Shown: positions 20,497-39,777 of the stretch, piece after piece | How positions within the stretch are numbered: position 1 is the stretch's first letter | Layout: each line of letters begins with the position of its first letter | Translations under genes and position numbers: made by a program | The notes under the pieces: model-generated | What the model saw: the letters and a program-made list of their open reading frames with translations, nothing else | Told to the model about the DNA's origin: nothing | The model's database searches: none | Assembly (NCBI GenBank): GCA_010028905.1 | Contig: RGZZ01000006.1 | Coordinates: 1-39,777 of the forward strand | Source: Pseudomonadota bacterium | GTDB lineage: Bacteria; Vulcanimicrobiota; Xenobia; RGZZ01 | Direction of reading: 5' to 3' | DNA length: 39,777 bases

Positions 20497-20544
20497 GCTG
20501 AGCAGTAGGATTCATCCCCCCCATCGAAGCGAGGAGGTACCCAG

Positions 20545-20871: not shown

Positions 20872-21022
20872 CGGAGACGGGCGGTCTGCGAGAGGCGCGT
20901 GATAGAGAGACGAGCGCTTCTCGAGCCTGAGCGGACATGTTTGTTGGCGGCGGCTGCTCCCTCGAGGGGAGGGCGCCGAGGGACTGTGTGGATTCAAAGA
21001 CTGACGAGAGAGGTGTCGACCA

Positions 21023-22735: not shown

Positions 22736-22736
22736 G

Positions 22737-23721: not shown

Positions 23722-23733
23722 GTCTGGGCGATT

Positions 23734-23763
23734 CCGCCCGTTCAGTGGGGTCCGCACGGGCGG
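23734..23763 (+). repeat. Intra-operon hairpin between fliG and fliH
   Basis: CCGCCCGT (23734-23741) and ACGGGCGG (23756-23763) form a perfect 8-bp stem with a 14-nt loop. A competing stem CGGGCG/CGCCCG also fits just upstream. No T run follows, so an RNA-stability or partial-termination role is possible. Confidence 0.45.
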
Positions 23764-23813
23764 AAACGTTTCGGCCGCCCCTTCGGGAGCGGCTGTGAAG
23801 GTGGAAACGGCGC

Positions 23814-25154
23814 GTGATCATCAAAGGGAAACGAGGCGAGCACGCCTCCGAGGAAGAACCTCGACTCGCTCCCGCGGCGCCGCAGGGGCGCGAATCTGCC
23901 TTGATCAAGAGCAAGGGGGCGCCGCTGTCGGCCCCCGAGCCCCTTCCCACCGCCCGCCGCTCCTCCCTCGTGAAGCGCGGAACCTACAGTCACACCGAGG
24001 CTGATGAGGCGCCCCAGGCACACGCTCCAGGTCCCGTTGACGAAACTGATCGCGTCGTCATCCCCACGGGAGATCGCCCCGCGCCTGCTCCGATTCCGGC
24101 GTTCTCAGATCCATCAGAGGGGGGGCATGTGCCTCCGCCGTCGATGGGTCCCCCTGTTGATCAGCAGATCATCGAGGAGGCGAAGCGTCGCGCGGAGGCC
24201 ATCATGCGCCAGGCGCAGCTCGACGCCCGCAAGCTGCTCGAGGAGTCGAAGATCCACTGTCAGAACGCCCTCGAGCAGGCAGAGCGTGAGGGCTACGTTC
24301 TCGGTCAGCAGAAGGGCTACGAGGCGAGCACCAGTGAGATGGTCGAGCTCATCCTCCAGATCCGGCAGATGCTGGGCGATGTGGTGTACGCGCGTGAGAA
24401 GGTGCTGCGAAGCTCCGAGGGGGCGGTGGCCCATCTCGCGCTCCAGATCGCCGAACGCGTGACGCAGACCGCGGTCACCGTGAATCCTGAGATCATCAAG
24501 AACCAGGTCTCGTTTGCCCTCGAGAAGGTCAAGGACCGCGAGCACGTCACGGTGCGCGTGAACCCTGAAGATCTCGACGTGGTTCGCGCCCGCCGCGACA
24601 TGTTCCAGAAGATCCTCGAGGGACCGAAGACGTTCGAGATCAATGGCGATCCGAAGGTAGACCGAGGTGGCGTCATCATCGAGACCAATCTGGGAAATGT
24701 CGACGCGCGCATCAGCACCCAGCTTCAGGCGCTTCACGTGGCGGTCATGGAAGTCGAGAAGCGCATGCAGGAGGAGTGGGAGCGCGCCGCCATCGCCGCC
24801 CGTGAGCAGGCGATGCAGCTCGGACTGCCGCCGCACCTGGCGGAGCAGGCGCAGCTTCCGCCCCTCCCTCCCCTGCCGGAGTTCGACCCGGCGTCGATGG
24901 TGGATGAGGCGCAGCACTGGGAGGGCGCCGTCGAGCCGGATCAGGTCGTGTACGAGCAGGCGCCCGCCTACGGGGGAGAGGGCGATTGGCAGGCGCAGAC
25001 CTACGATCCGGCTGTGATGTCTCCCGCGCAGGTCGATCCGTCTGCGGGGTGGCCACAGGAGGCGCAGCAGGCGCCTGTCCAGTGGAGCGCGCCCGTGGCC
25101 CCCGCGGAGCTGGGGCAGACCCAGGTCGAGGAGGGCGCTCCGCATGATCAGTGA
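23814..25154 (+). CDS. fliH: Flagellar export apparatus stator protein FliH, with long C-terminal tail
   Basis: The 446-residue protein is the peripheral stalk-like regulator of the FliI ATPase. After a Pro/Ala-rich N-terminal third comes the FliH core: a coiled coil rich in Ala, Glu and Arg (IIEEAKRRAEAIMRQAQ, about residues 117-160), GYVLGQQKGYEASTSEM, and the globular part LALQIAERVTQTAVTVNP through VDRGGVIIETNLGNVDARIS. About 125 further residues, rich in Pro, Gln and Glu, follow from about residue 320 and are unusual for FliH. The start is GTG at 23814 with AAGGTGG upstream. Its end overlaps fliI by 11 nt. Confidence 0.88.
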   Translation: MIIKGKRGEHASEEEPRLAPAAPQGRESALIKSKGAPLSAPEPLPTARRSSLVKRGTYSHTEADEAPQAHAPGPVDETDRVVIPTGDRPAPAPIPAFSDPSEGGHVPPPSMGPPVDQQIIEEAKRRAEAIMRQAQLDARKLLEESKIHCQNALEQAEREGYVLGQQKGYEASTSEMVELILQIRQMLGDVVYAREKVLRSSEGAVAHLALQIAERVTQTAVTVNPEIIKNQVSFALEKVKDREHVTVRVNPEDLDVVRARRDMFQKILEGPKTFEINGDPKVDRGGVIIETNLGNVDARISTQLQALHVAVMEVEKRMQEEWERAAIAAREQAMQLGLPPHLAEQAQLPPLPPLPEFDPASMVDEAQHWEGAVEPDQVVYEQAPAYGGEGDWQAQTYDPAVMSPAQVDPSAGWPQEAQQAPVQWSAPVAPAELGQTQVEEGAPHDQ

Positions 25155-26484
25155 TCTCGGTCCCCTCGACCTCGAGAGCATGGCGCCGTGGGTGCGCGCC
25201 GTGGCGAACGCCACCACGGTGAAGATGCACGGCAAGGTCACCAACGTGGTGGGTCTGGCCATCGAGTCAGAAGGCCCGACCTGCAAGATGGCTGAGCTCT
25301 GCTACATCTATCCGAAAGACAGCGATGATCCCCCGATTGAAGCCGAGGTGGTGGGGTTCAAGGGCAATCGCGTTGTGCTCATGCCTCTCGGCGAGGTGCG
25401 AGGAATCGGCCCGGGCTGCGAGGTGCGAGCCACGGGCGGGCCGCTGATGGTTGCCGTGGGGCACGCACTCCTGGGGCGCGTGCTCGATGGCCTGGGAAAC
25501 CCCATCGACGGCAAGGGTCCCATCGATCCGGACGCGATGTACTCCGTCCACAACGAGGTGGTGAACCCGTTCCTGCGGCCGCGAATCACGAAGCCGCTCC
25601 AGACCGGGGTGCGTGTTCTCGATGGTCTGCTCACCCTGGGTCGCGGCCAGCGCGTGGGAATCTTTGCCGGTTCAGGTGTGGGAAAGTCGACGTTGCTCGG
25701 CATGATTGCCCGCAACACAGACGCAGACGTCAACGTGCTCACGCTCATCGGAGAGCGCAACCGCGAGCTGCGCGATTTCATCGAGCTCGATCTGGGAGAG
25801 GAAGGCCTCAAGCGCTCGGTCTGTGTCGTGGCGACCTCTGACAAGCCAGCGCTGGTGCGTCGCATGGGCGCTTATGTGGGAACCGCGGTGGCGGAGTTCT
25901 TCCGCGATCAGGGCAAGGACGTGTTCCTCATGATGGACTCGGCCACGCGATTCGCCATGGCGCAGCGCGAGGTGGGGCTGGCGGTGGGAGAGCCGCCAGC
26001 CACGAAGGGGTACACCCCTTCGGTGTTCGCGCTCTTCCCCAAGCTCCTCGAGCGCCCCGGCACATCGCCCACGGGCACCATCACGGCGCTGTACACCGTG
26101 CTGGTCGAGGGTGACGACATGAACGAGATCATTGCCGACACGGTGCGTGGCATCCTCGATGGCCACATCGTCCTGGCACGCAAGATCGCCCATCAGAACC
26201 GCTATCCCGCGGTTGATGTGCTGCAGAGCATCTCGCGTCTCTTCCCGGAGATCACAAAGCGCGATCATCAAGATGCCGCAGGCAAGCTGCGCAAGGTGCT
26301 CGACACCTATCAGAAGAACGAGGACCTCATCAAGATCGGCGCCTACAAGGACGGCAGCGATCCGGATGTCGACTACGCCAAGCGCATGTTCAAGGAGGTC
26401 GTGGGCTTCCTGAGCCAGCGCAAGGACGAGCCGACGCCGATGGACCAGACTCTCGAGATGATGAAAGCCCTCATGGCGCGCTGA
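25144..26484 (+). CDS. fliI: Flagellar export ATPase FliI
   Basis: The 446-residue hexameric ATPase energises flagellar protein export. It has the F1-beta-like Walker A (IFAGSGVGKST, about residues 172-183), the Walker B region (DVFLMMDSATRFAMAQREVG) and the C-terminal export-ATPase signatures (PATKGYTPSVFALFPKLLER, DGHIVLARKIAHQNRYPA). No frame defects. It begins inside the end of fliH and overlaps fliJ by one base, so the three ATPase-complex proteins are translationally linked. Confidence 0.97.
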   Translation: MISDLGPLDLESMAPWVRAVANATTVKMHGKVTNVVGLAIESEGPTCKMAELCYIYPKDSDDPPIEAEVVGFKGNRVVLMPLGEVRGIGPGCEVRATGGPLMVAVGHALLGRVLDGLGNPIDGKGPIDPDAMYSVHNEVVNPFLRPRITKPLQTGVRVLDGLLTLGRGQRVGIFAGSGVGKSTLLGMIARNTDADVNVLTLIGERNRELRDFIELDLGEEGLKRSVCVVATSDKPALVRRMGAYVGTAVAEFFRDQGKDVFLMMDSATRFAMAQREVGLAVGEPPATKGYTPSVFALFPKLLERPGTSPTGTITALYTVLVEGDDMNEIIADTVRGILDGHIVLARKIAHQNRYPAVDVLQSISRLFPEITKRDHQDAAGKLRKVLDTYQKNEDLIKIGAYKDGSDPDVDYAKRMFKEVVGFLSQRKDEPTPMDQTLEMMKALMAR

Positions 26485-26954
26485 TGCCAGCCAAGCGCTT
26501 TGTCTTTCGGCTGCAGACCGTACTCGAGCTCAAGATCAAGAAGGAGGATGAAGAGAAGAAGAAGCTCGGTGACCTCATCGCCTGGCAGAAACAGGAAGAG
26601 CAGATCCTTGCCCAGCTGGTGGCGACCGAGCAATCGACGCGCGCCTATCTCAAGGAGAAGCAGGCCACGGGTCAGTGGATCGAGGTAGACGAGCTCAAGC
26701 GCATCTCGTATTATCTGAAGAAGGTGGCGGGTGAGATCGAGGCACAGAAGCAGAAGCTCATCGAGATCGCCCGTCGCATCGAGGAGCAACGAGACGCTCT
26801 TCTGGCCGCCGTCAAAGAGAAGAAGACGCTCGAGACACTCAAGGAGAACCAGCACCAAGAGTGGCTGCGCGAGGTCGAGGAGGAAGAGGCCAAGGTCCTC
26901 GACGAGCTTGCCACCCTGAAATATGCCCGTGAAGGGTACGGCAACGAAGAATAG
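26484..26954 (+). CDS. fliJ: Flagellar export protein FliJ
   Basis: The 156-residue protein is an almost continuous antiparallel coiled coil (FVFRLQTVLELKIKKEDEEK, LKKVAGEIEAQKQKLIEIAR, EEEEAKVLDELATLKYAREG), matching FliJ, the central stalk-like partner of FliI that also recycles chaperones. The ATG overlaps the last base of the fliI stop (TGATG). Identity rests on length, coiled-coil pattern and position, as FliJ is poorly conserved. Confidence 0.88.
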   Translation: MPAKRFVFRLQTVLELKIKKEDEEKKKLGDLIAWQKQEEQILAQLVATEQSTRAYLKEKQATGQWIEVDELKRISYYLKKVAGEIEAQKQKLIEIARRIEEQRDALLAAVKEKKTLETLKENQHQEWLREVEEEEAKVLDELATLKYAREGYGNEE

Positions 26955-27016
26955 GAGCGGGGCCCGATCAGCCCCATCGGAACGCGAAAGCGTGTGGAAA
27001 GGCAGGGAGACAGACC

Positions 27017-27709
27017 ATGGGAATTCTCGACCGAATCACAGCCATCGAGACGCGCATGCACGAGATCCAGACCATGATCAGCAGCCAGCAGGTGGCGGCG
27101 CCCACCTCGGCGGCAATGTCTGGTCAGGCGTCGTTCCAGGCCGTCATGGGCGGCGTGATGGGGGCGCAAGGCATGCCCGGCGCCCCGTCTGCCGCGGCGG
27201 GGATGCAGCAGATGCTGCCCGGCATGACGCCCATGGGGCTGACGGGAATGGCGGGAATGCTGCCGGGCGCGGGAACCCCTTCTCCGATTCCTCCTTCCAC
27301 AACGGGCGCCCCCGCCGCCACGCAGTTCGATGACCACATCAAGGAAGCCGCCGAGAAGTGGGGCGTCGATCCGCTGCTGGTGCGCGCCGTGATCCAGCAG
27401 GAGTCGGCGTTCAACCCCAGCGCGACCTCGAGCTGCGGGGCGCAGGGCCTCATGCAGCTGATGCCAGAGACGGCGCGCAGCCTGGGCGTGTCGAACGCCT
27501 ACGATGCCCGCGAGAACATCATGGGGGGCACACGTTACCTGAAGGGGCTGCTCGAGCGCTTCAACGGCGACACCCGTCTTGCGCTCGCCGCCTACAACGC
27601 AGGGGCGGGGAACGTCCAGAAGTACGGTGGCGTTCCCCCGTTCGCCGAGACCCAGAACTACGTGGCTCGCATCATGAGCAACTACGAGGGCATGAAGACC
27701 CCGAAATGA
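27017..27709 (+). CDS. SLT-type lytic transglycosylase in the flagellar operon
   Basis: The 230-residue protein has a short N-terminal helix (GILDRITAIETRMHEIQTMI), a Met/Gly/Pro-rich low-complexity linker to about residue 100, and a complete SLT domain: catalytic Glu129 in QQESAFNP, then GAQGLMQLMPETA and LALAAYNAGAGNVQKYGG. It should cut peptidoglycan to let the rod through, the role played elsewhere by FlgJ or SltF. There is no signal peptide or lipobox, so export through the flagellar gate itself is the best inference; the N-terminal helix could be the export signal. It lies between fliJ and fliK, 62 nt after fliJ. Confidence 0.9.
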   Translation: MGILDRITAIETRMHEIQTMISSQQVAAPTSAAMSGQASFQAVMGGVMGAQGMPGAPSAAAGMQQMLPGMTPMGLTGMAGMLPGAGTPSPIPPSTTGAPAATQFDDHIKEAAEKWGVDPLLVRAVIQQESAFNPSATSSCGAQGLMQLMPETARSLGVSNAYDARENIMGGTRYLKGLLERFNGDTRLALAAYNAGAGNVQKYGGVPPFAETQNYVARIMSNYEGMKTPK

Positions 27710-27792
27710 GTTCTTCCGTGATGGCGGACACGGAAGCGTGCCCGCCGTCTGCGGTTCAATGAGTCGAGGAGATTGAAAGGAGGTAGAGGGCG

Positions 27793-28797
27793 ATGGACAA
27801 GATGACGGAACATCCGAACCTGATCTCTCTGATCAGCAGCAACAAGCCCGAGAGCGGCGCGCGCAAGCAGGCCGCGAACACGGAGGGCGACTCGTTCTCG
27901 AAGGTTCTCGAGAAGAAGACCGGCAAGACCGACGAGGCCGCTGAGAAGAGCCGCGAGACCATCGCGAGCGACAAGCCGACAGAGAAGGGGCGCGAGAAGA
28001 GCAAGGATCAGGTCGAGCTCGAAGAGCGTCTCAAGGCTCGCCTCAACGGCAAGCCCGGTGAGATGTCGATGGCGAACTACATCTACAACATCGTGCTGCA
28101 GAACCCGGATGCCCTCTCCCTCTCAGAGAAGCAGGCCTTCAAGGTCGGTGAGTTCTCGAATGAGGCGATCGACGCAAGCGAGTTCAAGAAGATGCTGGGT
28201 GAGCGCGGTCTCGATCTGAAGAACCTCAACCTCACCCAGCTGGCGCAGCTTGCGCAGACCACGAACAAGGCCCAGGTGACGGCCTTCCTCGACGAGCTCG
28301 TCAAGAAGCAGCGTCACGACGAGAAGGCGCCGGAAGGCGCGATGCTCGGCGTGAAGACCGACGATTCCCGCCCTGAGCAGGCGGAGAAGGAGCGCAAGAC
28401 AGCCGAGGCGCGTGGCACGGAGAGTGCCCGCACCGAGGAGACGTCTCCCCAGCCTCGGTTCGACCTGGTCTCTGAGAGCCAGCGCCCCCAGAGCACCGAG
28501 ACCTCGAGTCGCAAGGAAGAGCGGGAGAAGGTCATTGCCCAGATCATCGAGCGCATGGAGATCCAGAATGTGGGACGGCGCACCGAGCTGACGCTCAAGC
28601 TGAACCCGGAGTACCTGGGGGAGATGCGCGTCAAGCTCTCGAGCGAGAACGGCAAGCTCGAGGCGTCGTTCGAGACGACCTCGCGCGAGGTTCGTCAGTT
28701 CATCGAAGAGGGCTGGGAGGGTCTCCGCGACACGTTCACCCGCAAGGGTCTGAACCTGCAGAAGGTCACGGCCACCCTGGTCGAGAGCGTCACATAG
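27793..28797 (+). CDS. fliK: Flagellar hook-length control protein FliK
   Basis: The 334-residue protein is mostly charged and low-complexity, then has the C-terminal hook-length domain at about 255-334: RRTELTLKLNPEYLGEMRVK, LEASFETTSREVRQFIEEGW and DTFTRKGLNLQKVTATLVES. FliK measures the hook and switches export specificity by touching FlhB. GGAGGTAGAG precedes the ATG. The central region is rich in Glu, Lys and Arg rather than the usual Gln/Pro, so the ruler length differs from classic FliK. Confidence 0.87.
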   Translation: MDKMTEHPNLISLISSNKPESGARKQAANTEGDSFSKVLEKKTGKTDEAAEKSRETIASDKPTEKGREKSKDQVELEERLKARLNGKPGEMSMANYIYNIVLQNPDALSLSEKQAFKVGEFSNEAIDASEFKKMLGERGLDLKNLNLTQLAQLAQTTNKAQVTAFLDELVKKQRHDEKAPEGAMLGVKTDDSRPEQAEKERKTAEARGTESARTEETSPQPRFDLVSESQRPQSTETSSRKEEREKVIAQIIERMEIQNVGRRTELTLKLNPEYLGEMRVKLSSENGKLEASFETTSREVRQFIEEGWEGLRDTFTRKGLNLQKVTATLVESVT

Positions 28798-28801
28798 ACG
28801 T

Positions 28802-28838
28802 GGGGGGGAAGGCCTCGACATCGCCGAGGTGCTCCCCC
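28802..28838 (+). terminator. Weak terminator-like hairpin after fliK
   Basis: A G run (28802-28808) can pair with CCCCC (28834-28838), and CCTCG/CGAGG (28813-28817 with 28825-28829) lies inside. There is no T run, so it may only attenuate. Confidence 0.3.
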
Positions 28839-28882
28839 TCACGACGTCGGCACCTCTCGTCTAGGGGGTGCAGGTTGCCAAA

Positions 28883-28948
28883 GAGTAAACCTCGTTAACA
28901 AAGTGTTAACATCGCGTTAAAGGCTTCGCAATCACGCCCTGATACACT
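28883..28948 (+). promoter_or_regulatory. Predicted OmpR/PhoB-type activated promoter of the rod/hook gene
   Basis: GTTAACA (28894-28900), GTTAACA (28905-28911) and GTTAAAG (28916-28922) are three direct repeats spaced exactly 11 bp; GTAAAC (28885-28890) may be a decayed fourth. The last repeat falls where a -35 box would sit relative to the -10-like GATACACT (28941-28948). This is the layout used by OmpR/PhoB-family response regulators at activated promoters. The regulator itself is not in the window. Confidence 0.5.
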
Positions 28949-28989
28949 ACGAGTGCAGCAGAGCGTAGAAAATCCTGGAGGACGGCCGA

Positions 28990-29811
28990 ATGTTCGATTT
29001 CAACTACCAGGTCAACGGCATCATGCAGAACCAGCAGATGCTCAACACGTACTTCAACAACATGCAGAACCAGTTCACCCCTGGCTACAAGGCCGAGTCG
29101 GTGTCGTTCACCGACGTGCTGGGTCAGCAGATGGCCGGACGTGGTGCAAAGGCCAAGACCAACGGCATCATCTTCACCCAGGGTCAGATCTATGAAGACA
29201 AGAACCCCACGCACATGGCCATCAACGGCCAGGGGTTCTTCGCGGTGACTGACGGCCGTCAGACGCACTACACCCGCGATGGCCAGTTCCAGTGGGGCCA
29301 GGACGGCAGCCTGCAGATGGGCGACGGCAAGAAGGTGATGGGCTTCGAGCTCGACGCCAACGGCAACCAGTCAGGTGAGGCCAAGCCCCTCAAGTGCGCC
29401 ATCGACCCCCAGAACGGCCTCTACATGGGCAAGTACAACAGCGTGAGCTTCGATGAGAACGGCACGCTGTTCGGTGAGGTCACCGAGACCAACCCGGCCA
29501 CCAACCAGACGGTGACCCAGAAGGTTCCCATCGCTCAGGTCGCCCTTGCATCGTTCGCCAATGCGGGTGGCCTGCAGAAGAGCGGCAACACCACCTTTGT
29601 CGAGTCCAAGAACTCGGGCAAGGTGGCGCTGGGGGTGTCCGGCCAGGGCGCTCTCGGAAAGATTGCCACGGGCAGCCTCGAGATGTCGAACGTCGACTTT
29701 GCACAGCAGGCAGCCGCAATCGGCATGGCCAAGCAGAACTACGAAGCCAACTTCGCCGCCTTCCGCGCGATGGACAAGCTCACCGAGTCTGCTCTGGGCC
29801 TCATCCGCTAG
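28990..29811 (+). CDS. Flagellar hook-basal body protein (FlgE/FlgF/FlgG family)
   Basis: The 273-residue protein has the axial N-terminus (FDFNYQVNGIMQNQQMLNTY, then NNMQNQFTPGYKAES), the middle NGQGFFAVTDGRQTHYTRDG and the C-terminal GSLEMSNVDFAQQAAAIGMA helix. This length fits distal-rod proteins FlgF/FlgG rather than a full hook protein (over 400 residues), though it could be a small hook protein. No flgD (hook cap) is adjacent. It has its own regulatory region and a terminator, so it may be expressed apart from the rest of the cluster. GGAGGA lies before the ATG. Confidence 0.85.
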   Translation: MFDFNYQVNGIMQNQQMLNTYFNNMQNQFTPGYKAESVSFTDVLGQQMAGRGAKAKTNGIIFTQGQIYEDKNPTHMAINGQGFFAVTDGRQTHYTRDGQFQWGQDGSLQMGDGKKVMGFELDANGNQSGEAKPLKCAIDPQNGLYMGKYNSVSFDENGTLFGEVTETNPATNQTVTQKVPIAQVALASFANAGGLQKSGNTTFVESKNSGKVALGVSGQGALGKIATGSLEMSNVDFAQQAAAIGMAKQNYEANFAAFRAMDKLTESALGLIR

Positions 29812-29825
29812 GCGTTCCGCGATGC

Positions 29826-29876
29826 AAGGGGAGGTTGACGGGATCCGTCCCGCGGCCTCCCTTTCGCTTTTTGTGT
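29826..29876 (+). terminator. Terminator after the rod/hook gene
   Basis: AAGGGGAGG (29826-29834) pairs with CCTCCCTT (29856-29863) with one bulged G, and GACGG/CCGTC forms an inner stem. T-rich sequence follows (CGCTTTTTG). Confidence 0.6.
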
Positions 29877-30024
29877 CTTGTGCGCGCGTATCTCGGGTAG
29901 CGGGCGGCGGGCGATGCGTTGCTGGCAGATCTGCACAGCGAAGGGGAATTCTGCCCCTGCTCGTGCAATCTCCTCATGATGCGTGGCCCTGCACGCACTT
30001 CCATCGCAGATCGGAGGCTCCCTT

Positions 30025-31002
30025 TTGCGCGACGATTCCGGCGGCTCCTTTGATCAGGTCATGCGTCTGACGCGCGAGCACTCGGCGACGAGGCGGTACG
30101 CCATGGCGGACCGCTACGATTTCAAGCAGACCGAGAAGTTCTCGCAGGACCAGACCAAGTTCCTGGAGCGCATCTACTCGTCGTTTGCCGAGCACGCCAT
30201 CACCGTGCTCGCGCCGCTCCTCCAGACACGCGTCGACCTCGACCTGCAGCCCATCAAGCCGCAGCCCTATCAGAAGTACCTGAACTCCCTGCCTGACCCG
30301 ACCATGCTGGTCGTGTTCAAGGTCGATGCAGACACGCAAGGCCTCCTGAGCCTCGAGTACGAGCTGGCCTTCGGGCTCATCGATCGGCTCATGGGGGGGC
30401 GCGGTGTGAAGTTCGACGAGTATCGCTACTTCACCGATCTCGAGCGGGCGGTGCTGCAGCGACCCGTGGCTCGTCTTCTCGAGGCGTACGGCGAGGCGTG
30501 GCGCGACGTGGTCTCGGTGCGGCCCGTGTTCGGGGCGATGGAGCTCAACCCCCTGGCGGTGCACATCGTGCCGCCCAGCGAGACCATGGTGGTGGTCACG
30601 TTCCACGCGGTCATCGCCCAGAGCGAGGGCACCATCGAGATCTGCCTGCCCTTCAAGCACCTCAAGAGCATCGTTCCGAAGGCCAGCTTCGATGAGTTCC
30701 TCATGTCGCGGCAGACCGCTGCGGCCCCTGGCGGCCTGCCGCCCATCGTCACCAAGAACCTGGAATCGGCCAAGGTGCCCATCTCAGTCGAGATCGGTCG
30801 CGCGGAGGTCATGTTCCAGGATCTGCTGGGCCTCGAGGTCGGAGACACCATCAAGCTCAACACTGCAATCGGTGAGCCGCTGCGAATACGCGTGAACGAT
30901 CGAACGAAGTTCCTCGGGCACCCCGGCACGACCCGGGACGGCAAGCTGGCAACCAAGCTCGTGCGCGTTCTAACGGAAGGAGACGAAGAGTTTGAGGAAT
31001 GA
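30025..31002 (+). CDS. fliM: Flagellar motor switch protein FliM, short N-terminus
   Basis: The 325-residue switch protein has the FliM middle domain (YDFKQTEKFSQDQTKFLERI, FGLIDRLMGGRG, FHAVIAQSEGTIEICLPFKH) and the C-terminal FliN-like domain (VPISVEIGRAEVMFQDLLGL, LRIRVNDRTKFLG). The start is TTG at 30025, with GGAGG seven bases upstream. The usual N-terminal CheY-P-binding peptide (LSQxEIDALL) is not visible: the front reads RDDSGGSFDQVMRLTREHSA. Either this motor is not CheY-switched at FliM, or the contact is made by another region. The last bases overlap the fliN start. Confidence 0.93.
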   Translation: MRDDSGGSFDQVMRLTREHSATRRYAMADRYDFKQTEKFSQDQTKFLERIYSSFAEHAITVLAPLLQTRVDLDLQPIKPQPYQKYLNSLPDPTMLVVFKVDADTQGLLSLEYELAFGLIDRLMGGRGVKFDEYRYFTDLERAVLQRPVARLLEAYGEAWRDVVSVRPVFGAMELNPLAVHIVPPSETMVVVTFHAVIAQSEGTIEICLPFKHLKSIVPKASFDEFLMSRQTAAAPGGLPPIVTKNLESAKVPISVEIGRAEVMFQDLLGLEVGDTIKLNTAIGEPLRIRVNDRTKFLGHPGTTRDGKLATKLVRVLTEGDEEFEE

Positions 31003-31321
31003 GAGCCTGTTCGGCCATCACGACGAGCCGGTCGCCAAGGGCGTGCGGTTCGACATGATCGAAGCCAGTGAGTCGGGGGGGGCGCCGTCGTCCATCGACC
31101 TGCTGCGTGACGTTCCCCTCGAGGTCCAGGCGCAGTTGGGCAAGTCACGCAAGCTCGTGAAGGATATCTTGAAGCTCAATGTCGGCTCCATCATCGAGCT
31201 CGACAAGGAGGCCGGCGAGCCGGTTGACATCCTGGTGAACAACAAGCTGATTGCGCGTGGCGATGTGGTCGAGATCGACGGCAACTACGGCGTGCGCATC
31301 ATTGAAATCGTGTCTCGCTGA
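30992..31321 (+). CDS. fliN: Flagellar motor switch protein FliN
   Basis: The 109-residue protein has the SpoA-type core of FliN (VPLEVQAQLGKSRKLVKDIL, ILKLNVGSIIELDKEAGEPV, NNKLIARGDVVEIDGNYGVR) which forms the lower C-ring. The start is TTG at 30992, 9 nt after AAGGAG; an ATG at 30999 is out of frame. It overlaps fliM by 11 nt, coupling the two C-ring subunits. No FliY phosphatase domain is fused. Confidence 0.94.
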   Translation: MRNESLFGHHDEPVAKGVRFDMIEASESGGAPSSIDLLRDVPLEVQAQLGKSRKLVKDILKLNVGSIIELDKEAGEPVDILVNNKLIARGDVVEIDGNYGVRIIEIVSR

Positions 31322-31415
31322 CGTCGCTGTCAGCAAGACACGCACTCGGCCAGAGAAGGCAGGCGATCGCGTCATCAACGGGCTGCTGAGCATCGTGGAC
31401 CGGGGCAGGGCACGA

Positions 31416-32087
31416 ATGTGCGTGTGGACGGCAGTGCTGCTGCTGTTCCTGGGCACCGGCGTGGCCACGGCTTCGCCATCGCCATTGCCGTCGGCTGAAG
31501 CCGCTGTGTCTGCGCCCGCCACACATACGTCTGGCGAGCCGCTGCCGCACGACGCGACGCCGAACCCGGCCGCTTCGAGTGAAGCCCGCCGGGGAACGGT
31601 GAGCGATCCCGTCGGTGGCATTCCCTATGCCGAGGGGCCGCGTGAGTGGCGGCATGGCGAGGAGATCAACTGGGGTCGTCAGATCGCCACCACGATGATC
31701 TGGCTGGTCCTCATGTGCGGAGCCATCTGGCTCATTCTCCGGGTGCTGTACGGGCGGGTCGGATTCGGAGGCTTCGGGCAGGGCTCGAAGCGAACCATAC
31801 AGGTGATCGACCGGCACTTCCTCGGTCCCCAGAGGGCGTTGATTACCGTGCGTGTTCCGGGCAAGGTCCTGCTCCTGGGCATGACCGAGCAGACCATCAC
31901 CACCCTGGCCGAGCTCTCTCCAGAAGACCTGGAGGTGCCGACCCTCGCAGGGGGCATAGACCCTGGCGTTCGACTCGTCTCCGAGGTACCTGTGTCGAGC
32001 GAGCCCCCGCGTGACAACATCGTCGATCTCGCCGCGCTGTTCGGCCGTCGCGGAGCGCAGTCCGGGAAGGGAGATGACGCGGAGTGA
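31416..32087 (+). CDS. fliO: Flagellar biosynthetic protein FliO
   Basis: The product of about 223 residues has an N-terminal hydrophobic signal (VWTAVLLLFLGTGVATASPS), a Pro/Ala linker, one membrane helix (TTMIWLVLMCGAIWLILRVL) and a cytoplasmic FliO domain (IQVIDRHFLGPQRALITVRV, GKVLLLGMTEQTITTLAEL). FliO helps FliP assemble into the export gate. I use ATG 31416, which places the signal segment at the N-terminus; the frame is open further upstream but overlaps fliN without homology. Overlaps fliP by 4 nt. Confidence 0.82.
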   Translation: MCVWTAVLLLFLGTGVATASPSPLPSAEAAVSAPATHTSGEPLPHDATPNPAASSEARRGTVSDPVGGIPYAEGPREWRHGEEINWGRQIATTMIWLVLMCGAIWLILRVLYGRVGFGGFGQGSKRTIQVIDRHFLGPQRALITVRVPGKVLLLGMTEQTITTLAELSPEDLEVPTLAGGIDPGVRLVSEVPVSSEPPRDNIVDLAALFGRRGAQSGKGDDAE

Positions 32088-32893
32088 GCGGTGCAGCAGG
32101 TTCGATGCGACCCTACCGACGAGCCGTGGTTCTCTGCGCGCTCTTCTTCCTGGCGCTTGCGGGGGTTGCGCTGGCGCAGAACGCCCCCGAGCTGACCCTT
32201 CCCACCATCAAGATCGAGGAGGGTGGCAAAGGCGGAGGCGGCCTTGCGACGCCGCTTCAGATCTTGATGCTGATGACCGTGCTGTCGCTGGCGCCCTACA
32301 TCCTCGTCATGACCACGTCGTTCATCCGCATCAGCATCGTGCTGTCGTTCCTGCGCACCGCGATGGGCACGCAGCAGGTGCCGCCGACCCAGGTGCTCAT
32401 GGCGCTCAGCCTGTTCATGACGCTCTACATCATGTCGCCCGTGGGCAAGCGCATCAACGAGACGGCGCTGCAACCCTACTTCTCGAACAAGATCAAGCAG
32501 GCGGAGTTCATCGATCGGGCGTCAAGCCCGCTCAAGGACTTCATGTTCGCCAACACCCGAAAGACAGACATCGTGCTCTTCTTCCGCTTGAGCAATCTCA
32601 AGGAGAAGGAGTTCCCCGCCATCGAGAAGCCGGCAGACGTGCCCATCCACATCATGCTCCCGTCGTACATCGTGAGCGAGATCAAGACCGCGTTTGCCAT
32701 CGGCTTCCTTCTCTACATCCCATTTCTCGTCATCGACATGGTGGTGGCTTCTGTGCTCATGTCGATGGGCATGTTCATGCTCTCTCCCATGACCATCTCA
32801 TTGCCGTTCAAGCTCTTGCTGTTCGTCATGATCAATGGGTGGGAGATCATTCTCGAGGGGCTCGTGAAGAGCTTCAAGCAGCCGGTCTACTGA
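32084..32893 (+). CDS. fliP: Flagellar biosynthetic protein FliP
   Basis: The 269-residue export-gate core subunit has a signal peptide (MRPYRRAVVLCALFFLALAG, cut after VALAQ) and the conserved body LAPYILVMTTSFIRISIVLS, FLRTAMGTQQVPPTQVLMAL, LPSYIVSEIKTAFAIGFLLY and VASVLMSMGMFMLSP. The GTG at 32084 overlaps the fliO stop (GTGA); the ATG at 32105 is an alternative that begins directly at the signal peptide. Confidence 0.96.
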   Translation: MSGAAGSMRPYRRAVVLCALFFLALAGVALAQNAPELTLPTIKIEEGGKGGGGLATPLQILMLMTVLSLAPYILVMTTSFIRISIVLSFLRTAMGTQQVPPTQVLMALSLFMTLYIMSPVGKRINETALQPYFSNKIKQAEFIDRASSPLKDFMFANTRKTDIVLFFRLSNLKEKEFPAIEKPADVPIHIMLPSYIVSEIKTAFAIGFLLYIPFLVIDMVVASVLMSMGMFMLSPMTISLPFKLLLFVMINGWEIILEGLVKSFKQPVY

Positions 32894-32905
32894 CGGAGGA
32901 AAGCA

Positions 32906-33202
32906 GTGCTGTTCCTGGCCAAGATCACCTTCGATGACGGCTTCATCCTCGGCATCTGCAGCGAGGCGCTCTACCTCATCCTGCTGCTCTCTTCTCCCAT
33001 GCTCATCTCGGCGCTTCTGGTGGGCCTCGTGATCAGCATCCTGCAGGCCACCACGCAGGTTCAGGAGCAGACCCTCTCGTTCGTGCCCAAGATCGTCATC
33101 ACGTTTCTCTCGCTCATCCTCTGCAGCACCTGGATCGGCGGCATGCTCGGCGGGTTCGCGGTACGCATCTTCAGTCTCATTCCCAACCTGGTTGTGAAAT
33201 AG
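32906..33202 (+). CDS. fliQ: Flagellar biosynthetic protein FliQ
   Basis: The 98-residue, two-helix export-gate subunit carries the FliQ hallmark VGLVISILQATTQVQEQTLS, followed by FVPKIVITFLSLIL. It is a few residues longer than usual at the N-terminus. The start is GTG at 32906 after GGAGGAAAG, 12 nt after fliP. Confidence 0.95.
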   Translation: MLFLAKITFDDGFILGICSEALYLILLLSSPMLISALLVGLVISILQATTQVQEQTLSFVPKIVITFLSLILCSTWIGGMLGGFAVRIFSLIPNLVVK

Positions 33203-33213
33203 GAGTCGCGCGG

Positions 33214-34041
33214 GTGAACAACAGCCCAGAGTTCTACACCATATGGGCGGTCTGGCTGCTGATCTTCGTTCGCATGGTCGGCTTCTTCGTGCAGGCGCCC
33301 ATCTGGGGTTCCGCGCACATCCCCAAGCCGGTTCTCGCGGCGACCGCCGCCATGATCTCGGTGGTGCTGTTCCCGCACGTGCCCGTTCCCAAAGGGCTCG
33401 AGACCCTGGGAGAGCATCTGGCGGGAGGCGACTTCACGCCGTTGGCCTATTTCATCGCCGCGCAGTTCACGGTGGGGCTGGTGATCGGCTACATGTCGTA
33501 CCTCATCATGGCGGCTGTGCAGTTCGGCGCCGAGCTGCTCGATGTGCAGATGGGCCTCTCGGTGGCGGCCAGCTTCGACCCCGCAAGCCACGGTTCCGTG
33601 AACATGATCCGACGCTGGGCCTTCTATCTCGCCATGGTCTTGTATCTGCTCATGAACGGTCACTACAAGGCGCTCGAGGCCATGAAGTTCTCGTATCAGG
33701 TCATTCCGCTCGACGGCATCAACTTCAGCTACTACATGCTCGAAGATCTCATTCTCAAGACGGGGCTGATCTTCTCCCTGGGGCTTCAGATCGCCTCACC
33801 CGTCGTGGCCTCGCTCTTCATCACGCAGGTGGCGCTTGGACTGCTGGCCCGTGTGGCGCCTCAGATGAACGTGTTCATGCTGAGCTTCCCGCTCAACATC
33901 ATGATCGGCATGACCCTGCTCTCATCGATGTTGCTGCTGCTGCGTGAGCGCCTGGCGCAGCTCTTTGATGACAACATCCACTGGATGTGGCAGAACATCC
34001 GGTTTCTCGTTCCCCACACGAGTGGGTTCGCGATCTGGTAG
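33214..34041 (+). CDS. fliR: Flagellar biosynthetic protein FliR
   Basis: The 275-residue protein has about six membrane segments and the FliR pattern FVRMVGFFVQAPIWGSAHIP, IGYMSYLIMAAVQFGAELLD, GLQIASPVVASLFITQVALG and LLARVAPQMNVFMLSFPLNI. It closes the FliP/Q/R gate. Start GTG at 33214, 11 nt after fliQ. Confidence 0.95.
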   Translation: MNNSPEFYTIWAVWLLIFVRMVGFFVQAPIWGSAHIPKPVLAATAAMISVVLFPHVPVPKGLETLGEHLAGGDFTPLAYFIAAQFTVGLVIGYMSYLIMAAVQFGAELLDVQMGLSVAASFDPASHGSVNMIRRWAFYLAMVLYLLMNGHYKALEAMKFSYQVIPLDGINFSYYMLEDLILKTGLIFSLGLQIASPVVASLFITQVALGLLARVAPQMNVFMLSFPLNIMIGMTLLSSMLLLLRERLAQLFDDNIHWMWQNIRFLVPHTSGFAIW

Positions 34042-34059
34042 AGAGAGGAGGAAGACGAC

Positions 34060-35169
34060 ATGAGCGGTGAAGACAGCGACAAGACCGAAGAACCAACAGA
34101 GCACAAGCTGCAGGAGGCCCGCAAGAAGGGCCAGGTCTTCAAGAGCCAGGAGATCGTGAGCACCTGCATGCTGCTTGCCACCGCAGGCGTGCTCATGACG
34201 GCCGGCGGCTGGATGTTCGGTGAGGTCATCAACTTCACGCGGGCTCGCTGGACGAACATCATTGAGAACAGCGATTTCGCTGGGCGAGACCTGAAGCTCG
34301 ATTTCGCGTGGTGGACGTTTGCCTTCCTCAAGATCCTGGGGCCGCTCCTCGCTCTCGCCTTCGTCATGGCGGTGATCGCAAATGTGGCGCAGATCCAGTT
34401 CCTGTTCTCAACAGAGTCGATTCAGCCAAAGCTCTCGAAGATCAACCCCATCGAGGGGTTCAAGCGCATCTTCTCCGCCAAGTCTCTGATGGAGCTGGCC
34501 AAGCAGCTGGCCAAGCTCGGCTTGATCGGATGGATTGTCTACAAGGTCGTCAGAGAGTCGCTTCCATCACTCGTAAACCTCATCGAGCAAGACATCGGTT
34601 ACACGGTCACGACCACGCGCAGCATCTGCATTGAAATCATCAAGAAGGTGATTGTGGGCAGCATCGTCATTGCGGCAGTCGACTACATCTTTCAGAAGAA
34701 GCAGTACATGAAGCAGATGAAGATGTCGATGCAAGAGCTCAAGGACGAGTACAAGGACACCGAAGGAAACCCTCAGGTGAAGGGCAAGCTGCGCCAGCTC
34801 ATGCGCCAGGCGTCACAAGGGCGCATGATGGAGGGCACGGCGGGGGCCAACGCGGTGGTGACCAACCCGACCCACCTGGCCGTTGCGCTGCGGTACGAGC
34901 AGGGGCTTGATGGCGCCCCCAAGGTCGTGGCCAAGGGCGAGAACCTCATTGCGGCCCAGATCAAGGTCATCGCCGAGGACAACGACGTGCCGGTGCTCGA
35001 GAACGTCGAGCTGGCTCGGGCGCTGTTCTCGGCCTGCGAGGTGGGTCAGGAGATCCCTCCCGACCTCTACAAGGGCGTGGCCGAGGTGCTTGCCTACGTC
35101 TTCAAGCTGAAGCGAAAGCGTCAGATGCGTCGCAAGCGCGCGGCGCAGTCCACGGGGGCGAAGCGCTGA
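34060..35169 (+). CDS. flhB: Flagellar export switch protein FlhB
   Basis: The 369-residue protein starts DSDKTEEPTEHKLQEARKKG, has four membrane helices and the cytoplasmic autocleavage site N269-P-T-H (VTNPTHLAVALRYEQG). After cleavage it changes export from rod/hook to filament type, triggered by FliK. The C-terminus ends in a basic tail. GAGAGGAGG precedes the ATG. Chemistry and position are standard. Confidence 0.97.
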   Translation: MSGEDSDKTEEPTEHKLQEARKKGQVFKSQEIVSTCMLLATAGVLMTAGGWMFGEVINFTRARWTNIIENSDFAGRDLKLDFAWWTFAFLKILGPLLALAFVMAVIANVAQIQFLFSTESIQPKLSKINPIEGFKRIFSAKSLMELAKQLAKLGLIGWIVYKVVRESLPSLVNLIEQDIGYTVTTTRSICIEIIKKVIVGSIVIAAVDYIFQKKQYMKQMKMSMQELKDEYKDTEGNPQVKGKLRQLMRQASQGRMMEGTAGANAVVTNPTHLAVALRYEQGLDGAPKVVAKGENLIAAQIKVIAEDNDVPVLENVELARALFSACEVGQEIPPDLYKGVAEVLAYVFKLKRKRQMRRKRAAQSTGAKR

Positions 35170-35239
35170 GGGTCTGCGCCAGCAGGCTTCAAGGCCAGCG
35201 GGTGGGTGAAGTCCGAACGTCCAGGGAGATGCACGTCGC

Positions 35240-37354
35240 ATGAAGTTCAAAGCTGCAGACATCGGGGTCGCCGTGGTGGTCATCGGCATCATCCTCATGC
35301 TGATCGTGCCGCTGCCACCGACGTTCCTCGACATCCTCCTGACGATGAACATCGCCACCTCGGTGATCACGATCCTCATCTCGATCTACATCACCAACCC
35401 GCTCGAGTTCGCGGTCTTCCCGACCATGCTGCTCGTGGCGACCCTCTTCCGACTGGCGCTTGACGTGTCGGCCACGCGTATGATCCTGGCCGGCGATCCG
35501 CACTCTCCGGATTCGTGGTCGGTGCCCACAGACGGGACCAAGCCCATGCCGCTATGGGCCGGTCATGTGATTCCCGCGTTCGCCCAGATCGTCGTGGCGG
35601 GCAACATCGTCATCGGCCTCATCATGTTCCTCATCTTGATCATCATCCAGTTCATGGTGATCACGAGCGGTGCCGAGCGTATCGCGCAGGTCGCGGCTCG
35701 ATTCACCCTCGACGCCATGCCCGGCAAGCAGATGGCCATCGACGCCGACCTCCACTCCGGCCTCCTCGACGCCGAGGGCGCGAAGAAGCGGCGCAAGGAG
35801 ATCGAGCGAGAGGCTGACTTCTACGGCGCCATGGACGGTGCCGGCAAGTTCGTCAAAGGCGACGCGATGGCCGCCATCGTCATCATGATCGTGAACCTTC
35901 TAGGAGGCGTGCTGGTCGGGCTTCTCTATCACGGCTTGAGCGCCTCAGACGCATTCAAGAACTACGCCATCCTCTCCATCGGAAACGGTCTCGTGACAAC
36001 GCTGCCCGCGTTCCTGATGTCGACCTCGATGGGTATGGTCGTCACCCGTGCCGCCTCTGAAGCCAACCTCGGCGAGGACGTGGTGAAGCAGGTTGCGGCG
36101 CAACCCACCGCGCTGAAGGTCGCCGCTGGTTTCATGGGACTGCTCGGTACCTTCGACATCTTCGGATTGTTCGGCCACCAGCTGTGGTGGGTGTTCTACA
36201 CCCTGGGAGGCGTGTTCTGGGTGGTTGCCGGCAAGCTCGATCAGAAGTCGGTCGAGGTGGCCGTCCAGGAGACAAAGAAGGAAGAGCAGCAGAAGCAGGA
36301 GCAGACGAAGAACCCGGTCAGCGTCGTGCAGATCATGCAGATCGACCCCATCTCCCTCGAGGTGGGTCGCGGCCTGCTGTCGCTGGTCGATCCCAATCAG
36401 GGGGCCAAGCTGCTCGAGCGCGTCACGTCGATTCGCCGCCACATCGCCCTCGAGATGGGCATCGTGGTGCCGGGGGTGCGCTTCCGCGACAACCTGCAGC
36501 TGAAGCCGAACGCCTACAGCATCAAGATCAAGGACGTGGAAGTGGCCACGGGCGAGGTCATGGTGAACCAGTTCCTCGCCATCGGTCCCGAAGACAAGCT
36601 CAAGGGCCTGCGCGGAACCAAGACCCTCGATCCCACCTACGGCATGCCGGGCGTGTGGATCTCGCCTGAGCAACGGGGCGAGGCCGAGCGCCTGGGCTGC
36701 ATGATCTTCGATCCGGTGAGTGTCGTGGCAACGCAGCTCACCGAGGTGGTGCGAACCCACGCGGCAGATCTGCTGGGCCGTCAGGAGGTCAATGCCCTCA
36801 TCGAGACGGTGAAGAAGACACACCCCGCCGTGGTGAAGGAGCTCATCCCGGATCAGGTGAGCGTGGGCGAGGTTCAGAAGATTCTGCAGAACCTGGTGCG
36901 CGAGCGGGTATCGATTCGCGACCTGGTGACGATTCTCGAGACGATTGCCGACAACGTGCACATGACAAAGGACTCCGAGGTTCTCACCGAGTGCGTGCGC
37001 GTGCAGCTGTCACGCTCCATCTGCAAGGAGTACATGAACAACGAGGGCGTGATCAACGTGATCACCCTCGATCCCCAGATCGAGCAGATGGTGGGGCAGT
37101 CGATTCAGCGAACCGACATGGGATCGATTCTCGCCCTCGACCCGAGCATCGGCCAGGCGATTCTGCAAGCGCTGGGCCAGGAGGTGCAGAAGCTTCAAGA
37201 CCGTGGTCTGCAGCCCATCGTGCTGTGCGCGCCGCAGATCAGGCCATCGATCAAGAAGCTCACCGACCGTTCGTTCCCGAACCTTGTCGTGCTGTCGTGG
37301 AACGAGATCGCGCCGCGCGTGAACGTCAATCCGGTGGGCATGGTCACGGCCTGA
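35240..37354 (+). CDS. flhA: Flagellar export protein FlhA, with loop insertion
   Basis: The 704-residue export-gate component has eight predicted N-terminal membrane helices and a large cytoplasmic domain forming the chaperone-docking nonamer. The FHIPEP region is clear (LFRLALDVSATRMIL, AARFTLDAMPGKQMAIDADL). Between RMIL and AGHVIPAFAQIVVAGN there are about 22 residues (GDPHSPDSWSVPTDGTKPMP and more) where most FlhA proteins have about 8. The C-domain (LLGRQEVNALIETVKKTHPA, LVRERVSIRDLVTILETIAD, LSWNEIAPRVNVNPVGMV) is complete. It is the last gene of the cluster and converges on the aminotransferase. Confidence 0.96.
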   Translation: MKFKAADIGVAVVVIGIILMLIVPLPPTFLDILLTMNIATSVITILISIYITNPLEFAVFPTMLLVATLFRLALDVSATRMILAGDPHSPDSWSVPTDGTKPMPLWAGHVIPAFAQIVVAGNIVIGLIMFLILIIIQFMVITSGAERIAQVAARFTLDAMPGKQMAIDADLHSGLLDAEGAKKRRKEIEREADFYGAMDGAGKFVKGDAMAAIVIMIVNLLGGVLVGLLYHGLSASDAFKNYAILSIGNGLVTTLPAFLMSTSMGMVVTRAASEANLGEDVVKQVAAQPTALKVAAGFMGLLGTFDIFGLFGHQLWWVFYTLGGVFWVVAGKLDQKSVEVAVQETKKEEQQKQEQTKNPVSVVQIMQIDPISLEVGRGLLSLVDPNQGAKLLERVTSIRRHIALEMGIVVPGVRFRDNLQLKPNAYSIKIKDVEVATGEVMVNQFLAIGPEDKLKGLRGTKTLDPTYGMPGVWISPEQRGEAERLGCMIFDPVSVVATQLTEVVRTHAADLLGRQEVNALIETVKKTHPAVVKELIPDQVSVGEVQKILQNLVRERVSIRDLVTILETIADNVHMTKDSEVLTECVRVQLSRSICKEYMNNEGVINVITLDPQIEQMVGQSIQRTDMGSILALDPSIGQAILQALGQEVQKLQDRGLQPIVLCAPQIRPSIKKLTDRSFPNLVVLSWNEIAPRVNVNPVGMVTA

Positions 37355-37417: not shown

Positions 37418-38764
37418 CTATCGCTTGCCGTAGCGCGCGCTCAGCTTCTCCTGCACGGCCGCGTTGAGATCGGTGACGAACTGATCGAGCTCGTCTGAGC
37501 TGAGGGCGCCCACCGCTGCAAGGCCGCGATCGATTCGGGCGAGCATGTCGTCGAGGAAGGCTTCGTCGACGATCTGGGGGGGGCTCACGCGCACCAGGGT
37601 GGGGGCGTGGATCGGGGCGAGCAGCAGCAGATGCTCCTCCTTGGCCAGGTAGCGCACCAGTGGCAGGCCCTGCCGACCGTCTGCGAGGACGAACGTGCGC
37701 ATCAATCCGAGCCCCTTGATCTCGACGACCATCGGATGCTTGCGCTGCAGCGCCTCGAGCCCCTCTTGGAGATACCTGCCGAGCCTCGCGCTCTGCTCGA
37801 CGAGGTTCTCTTCGATGACGGCGTGGATGGCGGCAATGGCGGCCGCACAGACGAGCGGGTTTCCGCTCCAGGTCGAGTTGTTGTAGGCGGGTTTCGCCAT
37901 GGAGGCCTGCTGCACCGCGGGGCCGTAGACGCAAGCCCCCGCGGCGAGAACGCCGCCTCCCATGAACTTGCCGAGGCAGATCATGTCGGGCACGACCCCT
38001 TCATGCTCGACGGCAAACATCTTGCCTGTGCGCCCGAAACCGGTCTGGATCTCATCGACGATCAGGAGCGCACCGTGCTGCGTGCAGAGCTCGCGCAGAC
38101 GGGTCAGGTAGCCGGGGGGGAGAACGGTGCAACCGCTGGCCGACTGCACGACCTCGACGAGCACGGCCGCCGTGGTGGGGCCCAGGCTCTTCTCGACGGC
38201 CTCGATGTCACCAAACGGAACAAGCGTGCAGCCATCGAGCAGGGGAAAGAACCCCTCGCGCCAGTAGGGCACGCCGGACACGGAGGAGCAGCCGATGGAC
38301 ATGCCGTGGAACGAGTTCTGTGTGCTGATGATCTGGGGGCGCTGCGTGGTCAGTCGGGCAAGCTTCATGGCCACCTCGATGGCCTCGGTGCCACTTGCGG
38401 TGACGAAGGAATGGTTCAGGTTCCCGGGCGTGATCCCGGCCAGCAGCTCGGCCAGCTGCGCCTGCGTGGGGTTGAACCCGAACTTCGGGGAGAGCGGGAG
38501 GCGGTCGAGCTGCGCCTTCACCGCCGCCACCACGCGCGGATTGCGATGGCCGAGGCCGAACACGCCTCCGATGGTGGTGCCATCGATGAACTCACGGCCG
38601 TGGCGGTTGCGTATCTTCGTGCCTTCGGCTTCGTACTCGACGAAGTCATCGGTGAGAACCTCGAGGTAGAGGGCGCTCATCGGATCGATGAATCGGTAGT
38701 AGGCGTCGATGGTGAGCTGCTCGAAGGGATCGAGCGCGGGCAAGGATGCGGCTGCCGTGAACAT
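37418..38764 (-). CDS. Class III aminotransferase, putrescine/ornithine type
   Basis: The 448-residue PLP enzyme has the class III pattern: [34 protein letters not shown], the cofactor-binding [20 protein letters not shown] (with D237) and the Schiff-base lysine K266 in LGKFMGGG. The pattern [20 protein letters not shown] resembles putrescine:2-oxoglutarate aminotransferases (PatA/YgjG type), but ornithine, acetylornithine or 4-aminobutyrate cannot be excluded. GGGAG lies about 10 nt before the ATG. No pathway partner is nearby. Confidence 0.88.
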
Positions 38765-38933: not shown

Positions 38934-39010
38934 GTTTACAAGTTGGAAACGTTTCGTTTACAAGACCGCAACAAACCGCCCTTTACTTTGTCTCCCCCCC
39001 GTGTGATAAT
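38934..39010 (+). promoter_or_regulatory. Promoter and GTTTACA repeats of the first small paralogue
   Basis: GTTTACA occurs at 38934-38940 and 38956-38962, exactly 22 bp (two helical turns) apart. A core promoter follows: -35 TTTACT (38982-38987), a 17-nt spacer and -10 GATAAT (39005-39010). Transcription should start near 39017, 31 nt before the ATG. Confidence 0.65.
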
Positions 39011-39047
39011 AGGCTCAAGAACAAAACATCTGAGGAGGCGTACCAAG

Positions 39048-39290
39048 ATGATTGGTGGCGGAATGCAGAACGGCGCGGCGATGGCCCAGCTCCAGAACAA
39101 CGACTTCCAGAACGCCCAGACCATCTACACCCAGATCCAGGCTGACAACCAGAAGCAGCAGATGGAGCGCTGGAAGATCGCCCAGGACACCCAGACCAAG
39201 ATCTTCGAAATCCAGCAGGATGTGACCGCGAACAAGGCCCAGACCCAGGACAAGGCCTACAAGAAGTGGGACGAGTACATCCGCGCGTAG
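39048..39290 (+). CDS. Small Gln-rich helical protein, paralogue 1
   Basis: The 80-residue protein starts MIGGGMQNGAAMAQLQ and continues with NNDFQNAQTIYTQIQADNQ, KQQMERWKIAQDTQTKIFEI and QQDVTANKAQTQDKAYKKWD. It has no signal peptide or Cys, is predicted to be one long amphipathic helix pair, and is rich in Gln, Asn, Asp and Lys. I recognise no family. GAGGAGG stands 7-8 nt before the ATG, so translation should be strong. The middle 27 residues are repeated exactly in the next gene. Its size and all-helical nature recall small secreted or needle-like substrates of type III systems, but that is only a hypothesis. Confidence 0.75.
   Translation: MIGGGMQNGAAMAQLQNNDFQNAQTIYTQIQADNQKQQMERWKIAQDTQTKIFEIQQDVTANKAQTQDKAYKKWDEYIRA
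39096..39181 (+). repeat. Copy 1 of an 86-nt duplicated coding block
   Basis: This block is identical to 39692-39777 except for two synonymous third-position changes (tac/tat and gct/gcg), i.e. 84 of 86 bases. The second copy is cut by the window end, so the repeat may be longer. Confidence 0.95.
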
Positions 39291-39312
39291 TCGCTCTCGA
39301 GCGTCACGTGTG

Positions 39313-39341
39313 AAACAGCAGGCAGCACGCCTGCTGTTTTT
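39313..39341 (+). terminator. Terminator of small paralogue 1
   Basis: AAACAGCAGGC (39313-39323) and GCCTGCTGTTT (39329-39339) form an 11-bp stem with AGCAC as loop, followed by T residues. A second hairpin GGGCTGGC/GCCAGCCC (39348-39355 with 39363-39370) follows. Confidence 0.85.
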
Positions 39342-39589
39342 CGTTCTGGGCTGGCTGCGCGGGCCAGCCCGTTGTCGTTCTGGCCGATCTGCACCTCAAC
39401 ACGAAGAGGCGCCGTGCGGCTTGCGCGTTGTCGGCGTAGAAGGGCAGGCGGGGCTGGCTTCCCGCGCTTCGTGGGGCGAGCGGAGATGTTCACCTCACGG
39501 ACATCGTTCTCGACAGTCATTTTACCGTGGCTTCACTCGATCGTGAGACCCTGTGGGCAAGGGAAAACACGCGTAGGAGGTACACGGAA

Positions 39590-39777
39590 ATGGCTCTTCC
39601 TGCAATTGCGGGCAATCTGCTCGGGGGACTCGCGATGGGGGCGATGGGAGGCGGCGGTCAGTCGAATGCCGCCGCGCAGATGCAGCTGGTGAACAACGAC
39701 TTCCAGAACGCCCAGACCATCTATACCCAGATCCAGGCGGACAACCAGAAGCAGCAGATGGAGCGCTGGAAGATCGC
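39590..39777 (+). CDS. Small Gln-rich helical protein, paralogue 2, 3'-partial
   Basis: The frame opens with ATG at 39590 after a strong AGGAGGT and runs off the window. It has a different, glycine- and methionine-rich hydrophobic N-terminus (MALPAIAGNLLGGLAMGAMG, GGGQSNAAAQMQLV) and then the same 27-residue core as paralogue 1. The N-terminus resembles a glycine-zipper or membrane-insertion segment and could direct the protein to a different location. The function is unknown. Confidence 0.75.
   Translation, partial: MALPAIAGNLLGGLAMGAMGGGGQSNAAAQMQLVNNDFQNAQTIYTQIQADNQKQQMERWKI

Follow-up and report, generated by a model that had tools for sequence, protein, structure and literature searches.

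The window analysed here, the entire contig C6 (39,777 nucleotides) of the 5.7 Mb draft genome G000, ends in two tandem genes for small proteins that lie downstream of a flagellum-type export cluster. On balance we favour the reading in which these proteins would be exported and would polymerise, as the main and probably needle- or filament-like subunit of a non-motile type III-like machine derived from a flagellum. That the family belongs to the machine encoded by the cluster is very likely. The initial annotation of the tandem genes overlooked that they are physically linked to the export cluster of the window, a linkage that gives the best indication of their function; the annotation's suggestion that the proteins are perhaps secreted now appears probable, export being suggested by linkage to the cluster and by an N-terminal module that the proteins carry. 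The coordinates of all features are collected in Table 1.

Table 1. Features of the export cluster and of the tandem small-protein genes in the window.
Feature	Position	Strand	Basis
Export cluster: FlgB, FlgC, FliE, FliF, FliG, FliH, FliI, FliJ, transglycosylase, FliK, FlgE/F/G-like, FliM, FliN, FliO, FliP, FliQ, FliR, FlhB, FlhA	19568..37354	+	Gene calls, Pfam, NCBIfam, order in relatives
FlhA, non-flagellar type; small gene 1.7 kb downstream	35240..37354	+	TIGR01398 795 bits, over cut-off
Class III aminotransferase between FlhA and small gene	37418..38764	-	Pfam PF00202 on L054 homologue; same place in several relatives
Promoter-like site of copy 1, TTTACT-17-GATAAT	38982..39010	+	9/12 matches; shuffle mean 0.1
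Ribosome site AGGAGG of copy 1	39033..39038	+	Sequence
Small-protein copy 1, 80 aa (P0001)	39048..39290	+	ORF, strong ribosome site, full-length family match
N-terminal module of copy 1, ~23 residues, proposed export signal	39048..39116	+	Also on unrelated proteins C99, C350, C69, C153
Terminator-like hairpin after copy 1	39320..39339	+	Sequence scan
Ribosome site AGGAGG of copy 2	39575..39580	+	Sequence
Small-protein copy 2, 5' part (62 aa + 2 bases); rest on contig C195, bases 1-108	39590..39777	+	ORF; C195 synteny with L045

Comparison of the two adjacent open reading frames recovers the near-identity first reported for them: from positions 39096 and 39692, 84 of 86 bases are the same, giving 26 identical codons and two that differ synonymously. 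The strong ribosome site annotated for each gene lies approximately 9 bases 5' of the ATG in both copies, and the promoter and terminator assigned to copy 1 correspond to a promoter-like site and a terminator-like hairpin. The GTTTACA sites stand only in part. Two matches to CGTTTACAAG do lie upstream of copy 1 (at 38933 and 38955), but 11 of 100 shuffles likewise give two matches with one mismatch allowed, and the box is absent as a feature of the related loci compared; being neither clearly more frequent than chance nor common to related loci, it was rejected as the mark of a regulon. The identical “27-residue core” of the two proteins owes its limits to where the window stops, because homology continues to the C-terminus. 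The end of the contig cuts copy 2, and contig C195 opens with the missing 35 residues (46-80), 97% identical to copy 1, followed by genes for a medium protein, a long protein, a zinc ribbon, a LolA-like protein, p134, a LysM/NlpC-like protein, a metallo-hydrolase-like protein and a response regulator, an order that also follows the tandem copies of genome G002 (L045). The first 108 bases of C195 almost certainly encode the remainder of copy 2; since C195 supplies these residues and is syntenic with a related genome, copy 2 would comprise approximately 97 residues. Further copies had been anticipated and are present: besides the completed copy 2, the genome holds a full orphan copy on contig C151 and two larger proteins on C195 that end in the same domain.

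By profile search, 21 of the 149 genomes examined from one phylum carry the family; they are distributed over 16 of its 70 genera. Named relatives include Candidatus Eremiobacterota, UBP9, CPR1 and several metagenome-assembled genomes titled as other phyla, and from the named records we take the phylum to be Eremiobacterota. The titles of five records (L045, L047, L048, L053 and L057: Armatimonadetes, Bacillota, Chloroflexi, Burkholderiales) conflict with placement in one phylum, and these are probably mislabelled. The C-terminal half of the family is nearly invariant (consensus WKILQDTQTKIFEIQQDVTVNKAKTQDKMFNKWDEYIRS) and the first 15-30 residues vary between genera. With this spread and this degree of conservation, the family cannot be called young and expanding, as had been thought; only the local duplication is recent. 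Several copies occur per genome, some of them orphans away from flhA (on C151 in G000, C2 in G033 and C22 in G009), and the 70-residue family domain also ends two larger neighbours of approximately 130 and 245 residues. Several copies per genome and a near-invariant C-terminal half are as found in bulk structural subunits.

The proteins are rich in Ala, Gln and Met, and the view that the family is undescribed holds, with no match above cut-off in Pfam, NCBIfam or PDB sequences. The AlphaFold2 monomer is predicted as one helix spanning residues 6-79 (pLDDT 84, pTM 0.43), a model with no fold match among solved structures, and neither sequence nor fold bears a likeness to needles, pilins or flagellin above cut-off. 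In a scan for the known needle subunit SctF that covered the small proteins, neither a Pfam or NCBIfam needle model nor any PDB chain was matched. HrpA pilin was considered and rejected, as copy 2 alone matched it and both scores fall below their cut-offs (17.8 bits against 34 for NF053530; 15.8 bits against 25 for PF09589). In the Eudoremicrobium-like (g4) genomes, a helical-type protein of 80-84 residues occupies the position of the small gene (L066:17484-17729, and L067-L069), and medium and long proteins come after it in matching order; its position fits the family, its profile comparison is weak, and it looks unrelated.

The linkage between family and export cluster is strong. In 13 genomes (G000, G002, G005, G007, G008, G009, G012, G014, G018, G024, G028, G031 and G033) the small gene lies approximately 0.5-3.7 kb downstream of an FlhA of the window type on a single contig. 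Of the family-positive genomes, the 17 whose FlhA match is substantial all carry FlhA of this type, FlhA being fragmentary in the remaining four (G001, G011, G015 and G035); apart from these four, no listed genome without a window-type FlhA has a family member. Counting against the favoured reading, the f10 genomes possess this cluster but have no member of the small-protein family next to it. In most relatives, a 105-residue protein without a family match is encoded between FlhA and the small gene (L054:9143-9478 and homologues), and it is absent from the window. It is modelled as a helical hairpin whose best PDB fold match has an E-value of 3, so that gene position is what suggests a chaperone role for it.

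The initial annotation also described swapped N-terminal modules, and the exchange extends further than the family itself, the same module being found even on unrelated proteins. Searching G000 with the small protein returned four further proteins whose match is confined to the region around its first 25 residues, and which start with the module and then pass into a different body: a 128-residue protein on C99; a protein of at least 465 residues on C350 with DUF3060-like repeats; a 313-residue protein on C69; and a protein on C153 (L016:6051-6359) whose start seems decayed and in which a module-like stretch is repeated near the end. A profile of the module, searched against 23 genomes and thus giving a lower bound on carriers, added proteins from other genera: one of 199 residues in G026, one of 387 residues in G002 (Gly-rich, with weak EF-hand matches), and, at E-values not significant alone, one of 137 residues in G014 (E = 0.21) and one of approximately 134 in G011 (E = 0.24). 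With these, unrelated proteins bearing the module come from four genera. Of the six intact carriers, each scores best, among 14 genomes, against the small-protein N-terminus of its own genome; for the three carriers outside G000, the design of the search did not favour this outcome. The N-terminal alignment scores of six pairs (the C153 pair included, the G002 pair left out) lie above those of all 20,000 shuffles. Over 20 codons, the modules of copy 1 and of the C99 carrier differ by seven synonymous changes and one non-synonymous change, so the module looks kept by selection, not recently copied.

Type III secretion signals are generally degenerate. The first charged residue of the small proteins lies at a median position of 17, versus 3 in all called genes, and an N-terminus that is short, uncharged, exchangeable and co-varying with lineage would fit a type III export signal if that signal were specific to its gate. 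On these sequence features, we judge it probable that the module is an export signal. A different account makes the small protein a cytoplasmic part of the machine, an adaptor, stalk or chaperone resembling FliJ, FliH or FliS, with the module as a docking motif. Small size, close gene linkage and the single long polar helix predicted for the protein would all suit such a part; however, FliH, FliI and FliJ are already encoded in the cluster, several copies per genome with orphans far from the cluster would be unusual for a chaperone, and the module heads bodies of a secreted type, with repeats, Gly-rich stretches and EF-hand-like motifs. We consider this account unlikely, though not negligible.

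Somewhat less probable again is that the module serves assembly instead of export, its carriers being built into a polymer or decorating it. In flagellin-like subunits, the N-terminal helix serves both export and assembly, and a comparable dual role would agree with a module that runs into the predicted helix and co-varies with the small protein of its own genome. The near-uncharged extreme N-terminus and the unrelated bodies of the carriers nevertheless fit a signal at least equally well, and the two ideas are compatible.

The cluster that would export these proteins contains rod, MS-ring and C-ring genes (FlgB, FlgC, FliE, FliF, FliG, FliM and FliN). FliI, FlhA and FlhB were identified by NCBIfam models, and FlgB, FliJ and FliPQR were assigned by sequence and by a gene order that is the same in relatives. 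The gate proteins do not score as SctV, SctU or SctN: FlhA exceeds the flagellar cut-off at 795 bits and falls short of that for SctV (575 bits against 692), FlhB likewise passes as flagellar at 396 bits and fails as SctU (351 against 358), and the SctN score is 567 against a cut-off of 605. FliM, too, scores as flagellar. No gene for the secretin SctC was found in the locus, secretins being encoded only on other contigs. Among matches listed from the 149 genomes, the FlhA of the window is 58-100% identical to FlhA in 27 genomes and at most 51% identical to all others, and the FlhA tree sets the window type apart, with a well-supported split, from the clade that holds flagellar FlhAs and that of E. 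coli; support for the window-type clade itself is only moderate (88/88), and long branches occur.

Three observations on related loci may be recorded here. In several relatives the cluster contains two FliQ-like genes (L066:13528-13845, L077:6208-6812 and L051:1754-2343). The g4 genomes carry an extra, lone FlhA paralogue (L086:6641-8758, L087:3891-6008 and L099:9437-11542), 58-60% identical to the FlhA of the window and with no export genes nearby. Genomes G025, G039 and G055 (L092, L101 and L093) carry FlhA of a third group, placed on a long branch, with no flagellin match in G025 and G055, which is possibly another non-flagellar system.

Flagellin (PF00669) is missing from 16 of the 21 family-positive genomes; the filament cap FliD, hook cap FlgD and P-ring protein FlgI are absent from all 14 flagellin-less positives searched, and the stator protein MotB (MotB_plug) from 11 of these, with weak matches in G011, G028 and G031, all these absences coming from profile searches over many genomes, which are drafts. 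Where flagellin is present (G000, G001, G002, G007 and G026), it mostly accompanies a second, different FlhA: in G007 and G026, flagellin and FliD share a contig with another FlhA, and G000 has FliD and FlgI alongside an FlhA on C255. The absence of flagellin, caps and P-ring, together with a second FlhA accompanying flagellin, therefore indicates a secretion machine derived from a flagellum and not a flagellum. The reading that fits the cluster best is an export machine of flagellar descent that has no filament, caps or P-ring and, in most cases, no stator. A flagellum of the usual kind that is hard to recognise, motile and with the small protein in place of flagellin, would account for the retained C-ring genes and for the flagellar scores of FlhA, FlhB and FliM, but the missing parts just listed and the distinct FlhA in genomes with a real flagellum make it very improbable. 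Least probable of all is that the gene is an incidental neighbour of flhA whose N-terminal likeness stems from composition or gene conversion, as the orphan copies and the Ala/Gln/Met-rich composition might suggest, given linkage in 13 genomes of many families, alignment scores beyond those of any shuffle and a synonymous excess that speaks against recent conversion.

We therefore return to the small protein as exported subunit. The machine would retain a flagellar base (FliF/G/M/N/E, FlgB/C and one FlgE/F/G-like protein), the ATPase complex FliH/I/J and the export gate FliPQR/FlhAB, and would have shed flagellin, filament cap, hook cap and P-ring, with the stator gone in most genomes. Its gate would read the near-uncharged N-terminal stretch of approximately 22 residues as a signal, and the long C-terminal helices of exported subunits would pack side by side to form a needle- or filament-like structure that lies beyond the rod. 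The neighbours of approximately 130 and 245 residues, which have the same C-terminal domain, may be junction or tip subunits; the 105-residue helical hairpin, whose gene precedes the small gene in most genomes, may, from its position, be a chaperone; and the other proteins with the same N-terminal signal would be cargo. A broader proposal, which we hold tentatively as a possibility, is that the conversion of a flagellum to secretion took place in Eremiobacterota separately from the origin of the known injectisomes, with an unrelated single-helix needle or filament subunit and with a lineage-matched signal, common to subunit and cargo, that defines the secretome.

The evolution of secretion machines from flagella is a standing question. 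The described route has one origin, with the Myxococcales intermediates (PMC3459982), and in the open-access literature we found no such system described for this phylum. If the proposal is true, the cluster represents another intermediate, in which filament and cap parts were lost and rod and C-ring kept, in a phylum almost without cultures, and its cargo could be read from genomes through the lineage-matched N-terminal signal.

Among known systems, the non-flagellar type III intermediates of Myxococcales (the “Myxo” group of Abby and Rocha 2012), which are without FlgBCDEK and FliEG (PMC3459982) and of which the system of Myxococcus xanthus has been termed a “needleless T3SS*” (PMC12075869), resemble the cluster in having a flagellum-related export apparatus and in lacking motility parts, a secretin in the locus and a known needle subunit. 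They differ in that the cluster of the window has FlgB, FlgC, FliE, FliG and an FlgE/F/G-like protein, a flagellar-scoring FlhA and a conserved small helical protein of its own. With the bacterial flagellum the cluster has in common the export apparatus, the rod and C-ring genes and the order FliP-Q-R-FlhB-FlhA, whereas genomes with only the window-type system are without flagellin, FliD, FlgD and FlgI, and usually without MotB. Compared with an injectisome, export gate and ATPase are present, but SctC is not in the locus. By analogy, the small protein resembles SctF needles and the HrpA pilin in its length of approximately 80 residues, its variable N-terminus and conserved helical C-terminus, and its gene beside the export apparatus; it differs from them in matching no family above cut-off and in being predicted by AlphaFold2 as one helix, not a hairpin. 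An export tag common to subunit and cargo would be unusual for type III systems, and would make their substrate lists predictable.
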